Shown: piece after piece, positions 28,778 to 31,638 of the stretch
Layout of the letters: each line of letters opens with the position of its first letter
Numbering within the stretch: position 1 is the first letter of the stretch
DNA from: Bacillota bacterium
GTDB taxonomy: Bacteria > Bacillota > Sulfobacillia > DUMF01
Assembly: GCA_012840015.1 (NCBI GenBank)
Contig: DUMF01000001.1
Span: 1 to 56,770, forward strand
Reading direction: 5' to 3'
Length of the DNA stretch: 56,770 bases
Position numbers and translations under genes: made by a program
Notes under the pieces: generated by a model
What the model was told of the DNA's origin: nothing
The model's input: the letters and a program-made list of their open reading frames with translations, nothing else
Databases searched by the model: none

Positions 28778-31267
28778 CTACGGCCTTGTGGCGATGCTGA
28801 CCAACTTGTCTGGGATCGATATTATTCTAGCAATCTGCCGGTTTCCCAGCCACTTCTTTACCCGCTCGGCAGATAAGGCCGCTCGTTCTAATTCTTCCCC
28901 GCTAAGTCCCGCTTGCACCTCGATCCTATCCCTTACCTTTCCGTCAATCTGGATCACTATTATCGAGGTTTCTCTTTGGAGTGCCTTCTGGTCGAAAACC
29001 GGCCAGGTCTGAAGATGGATGCTATCTTCGTGACCGAGCTGACTCCACAGTTCTTCTGTCATGTGCGGTGCAAACGGAGCCAACATCAACAGCAGCTTCT
29101 CGGCGCACTCCAGCAGGAGTCCGGGATTCCTCTTGTCGGCAGGTACTTTTTCCATATAGGCATATAGCTGGTTGACGAATTCCATCATCGCCGCTATAGC
29201 CGTATTGAAGTTGAACCTACCTTCAACATCGTTCGTAACTTTTTGGATAGTTGCGTTCAAGCTACGGTTCAGTTCGGTATCTTCTGCAGATCGTTGGCCG
29301 TTCCGCTCGAAAGCTGCTTCACGGCTTCCCTTGAGCCCAGCAATGGCCGTCACGATTCTCCACGTCCTATTCAAGAAGCGCGAGGCCCCTTCTATGCCGG
29401 TGTCACTCCATTCGAGTTCTTTCTCAGGAGGAGCAGCAAACAGAATGAACACTCGGGTGGCATCGGCGCCGTATCTGGAGATGATATCGTCAGGCGCTAC
29501 AATGTTGCCCTTTGATTTGGACATCACTGCCCCATCTTTCAATACCATCCCTTGGGTCAGCAAGTTAGTGAAAGGCTCCACTTCTTTCGTCAGACCAGCG
29601 TCATGTAGTACTTTCGTAAAGAAACGCGAATACAAGAGATGCAGTACGGCGTGCTCGATCCCACCTATATACTGGTCCACGGCCATCCAGTAGTCCACAG
29701 CCGCCCGCGAGAACGGTAGCTCGGTATCGTGCGGCGAGCAATAACGGTAATAGTACCAGGATGAGCATATGAACGTATCCATGGTATCCGTCTCGCGCCG
29801 CGCGCTACCTCCACACTTCGGGCAAGTAGTCTCTACGAATTGCTTGCAGGAACCCAGGGGGGAAATCTGCCCAGGCTCGAACGAAACAGTCTCTGGTAGC
29901 AACACGGGAAGGCTGCGCTCAGGAACGGGTACCACCCCACACTTATCGCAATATACGATCGGGATAGGTGCACCCCAATAACGCTGCCTAGATATCAGCC
30001 AATCGCGAAGCCTGTAGTTGACTTTCCTACTGCCCAGCCCATGCTCTTCCGCGTATTGTGCTATTGCGGCTTTGCCATTCTCGACTGAAAGGCCGTCGAA
30101 CTGGCCTGAATTCACCATATAGCCTTCGCCGGGATAAGCTTCCTTCATAGTACCTGCGTCGAGCGAACCATCAGGAGCCTGTATCACGACTTTTATAGGT
30201 AAACCATATTTCCTGGCGAATTCGAAGTCCCTTTGGTCGTGAGCCGGTACTCCCATGACCGCCCCGGTACCGTATTCCATCAAAACATAATCTGCCACCC
30301 ATATGGGTATCTCTTCACCATTCATCGGGTTTACAGCATAGGCCCCCGTAAAGATGCCATCTTTATCCCTCTCTGCCGAGGTCCTGACTATTTCGGGCAT
30401 CAACCTACATTTCTCTGCGAATTCTGCCACCTTTGCCTCGTAAGGGGTGCCTGCCGTAATCTCCTTGACAAGCGGATGATCCGGAGCAAGCACCACGAAA
30501 GTTACACCGAAGATGGTATCCTGCCTCGTAGTGAACACTGCGAACTTCTTATCCGAACCTTTCACCCCGAACAAGAATTCCACACCTTCGCTCCGACCGA
30601 TCCAATTCTCTTGCATAATCCTTACCTGCTCAGGCCAGCCCTTGAGCAGTTTGAGGTCTTCGAGCAACCGGTCGGCATAAGCGGTAATGCGCAAAAACCA
30701 TTGGTCAAGCTCGGTCTTGGTAACCGTACTGTGGCACCGCCAGCACTCCCCCTCGATGACCTGCTCGTTGGCGAGTACGGTTTTACACGAAGGGCACCAG
30801 TTGACTATGGCCCGTTTCTTGTATGCGAGGCCTCTGTGATACATGAGCAGGAACAGCCACTGTGTCCATCTATAGTAGCGCGGATCGCAAGTGGCCACCT
30901 CCCGGTCCCAATCGTAGCTGAGGCCCAGCCTTTTGAGTTGACGGCGCATGTTCGCGATGTTATTCCAAGTCCATTCAGCCGGATGAATCCCTCGTTTAAT
31001 CGCGGCGTTTTCGGCAGGCATTCCGAAAGCGTCCCAGCCCATCGGATGCAGCACGTTGAAACCCTTCATCCTCTTGAAACGCGCCACCACATCGCCCATT
31101 GTGTAGTTCCGGACGTGACCCATGTGAAGGTCACCTGAGGGATAGGGAAACATTTCGAGACAATAAAACTTCGGCTTCTCGGGGGTTTCCACTACCTGGT
31201 ATATCCCCGACTTTTCCCAACGCTCCTGCCACTTGGATTCCACCACATCGAAATCGTACCTATCCAT
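28778..31267 (-). CDS. leuS: Leucyl-tRNA synthetase
   Basis: Class I synthetase that charges tRNA-Leu; 829 residues from ATG 31267, which has GGGGGG upstream. The frame is open for 30 codons upstream, but this stretch is the T-box terminator. Seen: the HIGH-type motif [15 protein letters not shown] near residue 40, a CP1 editing domain with [15 protein letters not shown] near residue 330, a zinc-type insert with CPKCGG, and the KMSKS-type [11 protein letters not shown] near residue 577. Expression should depend on the upstream T-box leader, which here contains a tRNA-Ala gene. Confidence 0.97.
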
Positions 31268-31286
31268 AAACAGCCCCCCGATTACG

Positions 31287-31317
31287 AAAAAGCTCCCACC
31301 CTTCAAGGGGCGAGAGC
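31287..31317 (-). terminator. T-box-controlled terminator of leuS
   Basis: A 10-bp stem (GCTCTCGCCC with GGGTGGGAGC, including G-U pairs) with a 6-nt loop, followed by TTTTT. It lies 20 nt before the leuS start. In the default state it would also end the tRNA-Ala transcript. Confidence 0.88.
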
Positions 31318-31358
31318 ATCGCTTCCCGCGGTACCACCCTACGTTCAGGAAAATCAAA

Positions 31359-31434
31359 TGGTGGAGCTGATGGGGATCGAACCCACGACCTCATGAATGC
31401 CATTCATGCGCTCTCCCAGCTGAGCTACAGCCCC
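31359..31434 (-). tRNA. tRNA-Ala(GGC)
   Basis: A complete 76-nt cloverleaf with encoded CCA. The acceptor is GGGGCTG/CAGCTCC with the alanine identity pair G3-U70 and discriminator A. The D arm is GCTC/GAGC. The anticodon stem is CATGA/TCATG with loop ATGGCAT, giving anticodon GGC (codons GCC/GCU) and the A32-U38 pair typical of this isoacceptor. The T arm is GTGGG/CCCAT with TTCGATC. All invariant positions are present, so it looks functional. It lies inside the leuS T-box leader, between the last leader hairpin and the antiterminator. Confidence 0.97.
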
Positions 31435-31610
31435 ACTTCCCGCGCTCAAACTGCTTAACGCGCAGCCCACGGCGCCAGCTACCAGGTTGAGACCTTTCGC
31501 CGCGCTGCTCCAGAGCGAGAAACTTCTTTCGGTTTACCGGCTTCCACCTACCGCCAGCTCTCTCTAAAACCCGAATAAAAGTGCTCTCCTTCATTGCAGT
31601 TGCAGATAAA

Positions 31611-31638
31611 ATTATACCTGTAGCGGTCCTAATGTCAA
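31611..31638 (-). promoter_or_regulatory. Consensus sigma-A promoter of the T-box/tRNA-Ala/leuS unit
   Basis: A perfect TTGACA (31633-31638) and a perfect TATAAT (31611-31616) with a 16-nt spacer. Such a strong promoter suits a tRNA gene. The T-box Stem I starts about 12 nt after the -10. Between here and 31884 I see no further gene or clear element. Confidence 0.9.

Follow-up and report, generated by a model that had tools for sequence, protein, structure and literature searches.

Bacterial tRNAs can be co-transcribed with mRNAs, as in E. coli thrU-tufB and metY-nusA, where the tRNA is freed from the common transcript by processing. The locus that we describe here resembles these two in that a tRNA shares its transcript with a protein gene that follows it, and its other parts are those of a leuS T-box leader (RF00230), with a promoter, Stem I, a Leu specifier, Stem III, the T-box sequence, an antiterminator/terminator and leuS downstream. 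As in the B. subtilis glyQS T-box, Stem III connects Stem I to the antiterminator (PMC6197855). The locus is found in the window, by which we mean the whole 56,770-nt stretch of DNA analyzed, from the draft genome of a Bacillota bacterium (29 contigs, 96% complete). Its leader runs from the promoter through Stem I, a Stem II-like region, a tRNA, the T-box sequence and the terminator to leuS (Table 1), and the tRNA, a tRNA-Ala(GGC), is the only one that ARAGORN finds in the window. An earlier note on this DNA had named the promoter, Stem I, CUC specifier, tRNA, spacer, T-box and terminator, all with correct coordinates, and its claim that a complete T-box with Leu specificity encloses a tRNA-Ala gene of functional appearance is supported by the comparisons below. 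Judging from sequence, we consider the locus to be, probably, an ordinary leucine-sensing transcriptional T-box in which the loop of Stem III houses a passenger tRNA-Ala(GGC) gene.

Table 1. Parts of the leuS leader and their positions in the window
Feature	Position	Strand	Basis
-35 box TTGACA	31633..31638	-	read from sequence
-10 box TATAAT, 16-nt spacer to -35 box	31611..31616	-	read from sequence
T-box Stem I	31503..31603	-	RF00230 alignment and fold
Specifier CUC (Leu)	31517..31519	-	aligned to relatives' conserved GAA-CUC-G..GGAG motif
Stem II-like hairpins, between Stem I and Stem III	31443..31502	-	RF00230 alignment
Stem III 5' strand CGGGAAG	31436..31442	-	pairs with 31352-31346; covariation in relatives
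Embedded tRNA-Ala(GGC), encoded CCA, replaces Stem III loop	31359..31434	-	ARAGORN; RF00005 63.4 bits; G3:U70
Anticodon of embedded tRNA-Ala(GGC)	31401-31399	-	
18-nt spacer, tRNA to T-box sequence	31358-31341	-	
Stem III 3' strand TTTCCTG	31346..31352	-	pairs with 31442-31436; covariation in relatives
T-box sequence AGGGTGGTACCGCG, antiterminator core with UGGU bulge	31327..31340	-	RF00230 alignment
Intrinsic terminator hairpin and T run, mutually exclusive with antiterminator	about 31286..31320	-	fold; hairpin finder
leuS, leucyl-tRNA synthetase	28778..31267	-	ORF; TIGR00396 1105.9 bits

The Rfam search, which the earlier note had proposed as a check, returned one RF00230 match in the window (31603-31303, minus strand; E = 1.3e-19) that is complete over model positions 1-219, spans the whole leader including Stem I upstream of the tRNA, and carries the embedded tRNA as an 83-nt insertion. 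Its score is 90.9 bits against a curated Rfam cut-off of 93, which nine relatives with a T-box around the tRNA exceed, the highest at 120.8 bits. The specifier in Stem I agrees with the downstream leuS, AGGGTGGTACCGCG is present as the conserved antiterminator-bulge sequence, a terminator hairpin with a T run competes with the antiterminator, and a tRNA-Leu(GAG) is encoded in the source genome. Among the 147 loci listed from the genome searches described below, the specifier is CUC in 103 of the 104 with a recognisable Stem I motif and CUG in one. Thermodynamic folding of the tRNA, Stem I and antiterminator, each taken in isolation, was no better than that of shuffled sequences, and for this reason we relied on comparative evidence. 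A tmRNA_permuted match across the 3' half of the tRNA, the T-box and the terminator region was discarded, scoring 28.7 bits under a cut-off of 47. The source genome (G000) has 13 T-box matches in total (L001-L013), of which the leuS one was examined for an embedded tRNA. Stem I itself varies in size: in three loci (L060, L079 and L081) it is very short and lacks space for the distal loops, since only ~30 nt separate the 5'-side motif from the specifier. In five others (L051, L087, L097, L099 and L124) there is seemingly no space for Stem II, because the specifier lies only about 41-48 nt ahead of the tRNA.

The strands that flank the tRNA are complementary at five positions anchored on the T-box in 132 loci. 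We counted 498 paired cells, compared with 397 +/- 9 (maximum 422) when partners were swapped between loci, a control that preserves base composition and not sequence relatedness; the covarying pair types are G-C, A-T, C-G and T-A. In tRNA-less leuS T-boxes of the same class, the slot of the tRNA is taken by a plain hairpin, for example GGCCGGCC-GCAC-GGCCGGCC before AACGAGGGTGG. From the covariation of the flanks and the plain hairpin of the tRNA-less leaders, we assign the tRNA to the loop of Stem III. The tRNA had previously been described as sitting in the linker, which holds for its position between sensor and switch and fails for the idea of a mere linker, as it sits atop Stem III and replaces the loop. 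That an inserted gene is tolerated here fits the behaviour of the glyQS Stem III, which tolerates shortening (PMC6197855).

Upstream of Stem I, a near-consensus promoter (score 10 or more) was detected in 67 of 92 loci. Directly upstream of the tRNA, we found a promoter in none of the 92 loci (1 of 92 in shuffled sequence), and a separate tRNA promoter was rejected. A strict finder located a terminator hairpin with a T run after the T-box in 88 of 146 loci, versus 1 of 146 when shuffled; some of the 58 loci in which it found none could act translationally or have atypical terminators. The switch and the tRNA thus lie together between a single promoter and a single terminator, and since the tRNA is upstream of the terminator, every full leader transcript contains it. 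This fits the suggestion that each initiation would yield a tRNA-Ala while leuS is reached by readthrough.

From this architecture we infer regulation by tRNA-Leu, processing of the tRNA and a decision that precedes cleavage. Transcription would begin at the single promoter ahead of Stem I, which would read tRNA-Leu through its CUC specifier while the polymerase goes on to make Stem III, with the tRNA at its tip, and then reaches the antiterminator/terminator. Uncharged tRNA-Leu would stabilise the antiterminator and allow readthrough into leuS; without it, transcription would stop at the terminator, which would also be the end of the tRNA transcript. Under both outcomes the transcript would contain tRNA-Ala, to be excised by RNase P and 3' processing enzymes, so that the supply of tRNA-Ala would be independent of leucine status and leuS, whose mRNA would begin downstream of the excised tRNA, would depend on readthrough. 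A working switch needs the decision to come first, because the 5' cut by RNase P would part Stem I from the antiterminator; excision most likely follows the antitermination decision, at least in most transcripts.

One alternative has RNase P acting on the switch itself, its cut detaching Stem I and the bound tRNA-Leu from the antiterminator. Variants of it would have the speed of cleavage, or its slowing by Stem III or tRNA-Leu, do the regulating, or have the maturation of tRNA-Ala follow leucine status. The cut site does lie inside Stem III, between sensor and switch, and the pairing around the tRNA is conserved; moreover, leader/RCCA pairing is reported to inhibit bacterial RNase P (PMC9433436), and Stem III is reported as an in vitro pausing site by Grundy and Henkin, as cited in PMC6197855. 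However, the sequence just ahead of the embedded tRNA (U at -1, GU at -2/-1) and the short extension of its acceptor stem are like those of free tRNAs, with no special tuning visible, and Stem III is present also in leaders without a tRNA. Such flanks would suit a normal substrate of RNase P, and a special end-flank pairing that would block RNase P was rejected, being the same in free tRNAs and swapped controls. We thus regard a processing-coupled switch as unlikely. The specific proposal that RNase P serves as a timer parting the tRNA-Leu sensor from the antiterminator, or that tRNA-Leu binding gates the maturation of the sole tRNA-Ala(GGC) of the cell, has a small chance of being right; if true, leucine status and alanine decoding would be coupled in one RNA.

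The 3' end of the tRNA bears on a second alternative, cis competition of the embedded ACCA for the UGGU bulge, which would make tRNA-Ala a second ligand of the riboswitch. In the window, the tRNA encodes its ACCA 18 nt before the T-box, as this reading would have it. Among the loci listed, though, CCA is encoded in 108 of 147 and absent in 39 of 147, the specifier is CUC and not an Ala codon, and a 3' end within the transcript is not free. A conserved function of this kind, which the earlier note had raised, is very unlikely.

By its other features the embedded RNA looks like a working tRNA-Ala. Besides its encoded CCA, the copy in the window has the cloverleaf, the anticodon, the G3:U70 identity pair and the discriminator A73 of a functional tRNA-Ala, and G3:U70 and A73 are found in 97 of 97 embedded tRNAs. 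The anticodon makes it Ala(GGC) in 147 of 147 loci among the matches listed. ARAGORN reports one Ala-GGC gene in the source genome, in which there are 45 tRNA matches (genome 96% complete), and a pattern search with up to 2 mismatches found no Ala-GGC gene besides the embedded copy in any of the 27 carrier genomes with fully listed matches. As no other Ala-GGC gene was found in these 27 genomes, the embedded tRNA must be excised, and on this gene content it is apparently irreplaceable. The notion that the tRNA fold is only a scaffold, a rigid loop or linker rather than a working tRNA, can point to its seat exactly at the tip of the stem; against the invariant anticodon and identity elements, the lack of a second gene and the retention of the tRNA where the T-box has decayed, we find it highly improbable, and a structured linker as sole role is accordingly unlikely. 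The locus with the decayed T-box (L248, at about 4250-4050 on the minus strand of genome G051) has lost Stem I and has a degenerate T-box core, with tRNA-Ala(GGC) and the terminator hairpin still ahead of leuS, an apparent decay state of the T-box. Several Chloroflexota (L072, L108, L111, L112 and L122) have a tRNA-Ala(CGC) gene roughly 200-300 nt upstream of the embedded tRNA-Ala(GGC), in the same orientation.

To see how widely this arrangement occurs, we searched 60 genomes of the same class with the leader DNA and ran Rfam on 20 of the loci obtained, of which 18 have a complete T-box around the same tRNA. The T-box split by a tRNA upstream of leuS, which the earlier note had suggested looking for in relatives, is thus present there and an artefact is excluded. 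Within the class, a tRNA-agnostic pattern (a tRNA T-arm 18-48 nt upstream of the T-box core) identified the arrangement in 29 of 154 genomes, and within the phylum in 65 of 398 genomes, or 45 of 270 genera; the reversed control pattern gave no match in the 398 genomes. A scan of 84,980 named species genomes gave at least 119 stretches, and pooling and de-duplication of the matches listed left at least 147 distinct loci. Two carriers are single-contig assemblies (G042 and G022), and two more have the arrangement on multi-megabase contigs (G171 and G518). Chance juxtaposition or an assembly error, to which a draft in 29 contigs might be prone, is refuted by the number of distinct loci, the single-contig genomes among them and the empty reversed control.

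Among the matches listed, carriers are mainly Bacillota, Chloroflexota/Thermomicrobiota and Armatimonadota. Named ones include Syntrophomonas, Thermosyntropha, Desulfofundulus, Pelotomaculum and Orenia, as well as many Chloroflexota and Thermomicrobia, Armatimonadota, Coprothermobacterota and Caldisericota; mis-binning may account for lone MAGs with the labels Desulfovibrio, Proteobacteria or Actinomycetota. The tRNA is missing from some pattern matches, for example in Exiguobacterium, Micromonospora and Rhodanobacter. In a sample of 30 leuS loci of the class, which are the best-scoring ones and hence non-random, 9 have a T-box with the tRNA, 8 a T-box without it, 1 the tRNA without a recognisable T-box and 12 neither.

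The gene downstream is nearly constant too, leuS being detected in 137 of the 147 loci listed; the remaining 10 end early or have another gene first. Directly after the leader, an AMP-binding acyl-CoA synthetase-like gene was read in L052, L071, L096, L115 and L231-L236, and leuS follows it in L052, L071 and L115. This first gene, named by eye and not by family search, occurs in several Bacillota. An ilvE-like branched-chain aminotransferase gene, also read by eye, lies between leader and leuS in L067, L083, L111 and L119, which are Armatimonadota/Chloroflexota-type genomes, and such a neighbour is consistent with leucine control.

In a LeuS tree restricted to the carriers, the sequences are strongly ordered by phylum, with 11 label changes compared with a minimum of 7 and a shuffled mean of 32. 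This order fits old inheritance with few transfers. The uniform identity of the arrangement, always Ala-GGC, always leuS and always Stem III, suggests one origin followed by later losses, and a single ancient origin is the sole explanation that we offer for so constant a passenger before leuS.

Here an apparently essential tRNA gene shares its stretch of RNA with a riboswitch, an arrangement conserved over deep evolutionary distances, and one transcript must be both regulatory switch and precursor of tRNA-Ala. The arrangement makes the order in time of tRNA processing and co-transcriptional regulation testable, reveals that there is room for a whole gene in a T-box Stem III, and suggests that tRNA and riboswitch annotations are best read jointly.

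The earlier note knew of no described T-box containing a tRNA gene, and our search of the open-access literature found no published description either; the parts are known, and their combination was not found described there. Compared with other leuS T-boxes, in which tRNA-less versions have a plain hairpin, the apical loop of Stem III is here a complete tRNA-Ala(GGC) gene, whereas the Stem III of B. subtilis glyQS is small and has no gene inside (PMC6197855). In thrU-tufB and metY-nusA the tRNA precedes the gene, whereas in these leuS leaders a riboswitch surrounds it, with the sensor on one side and the expression platform on the other.
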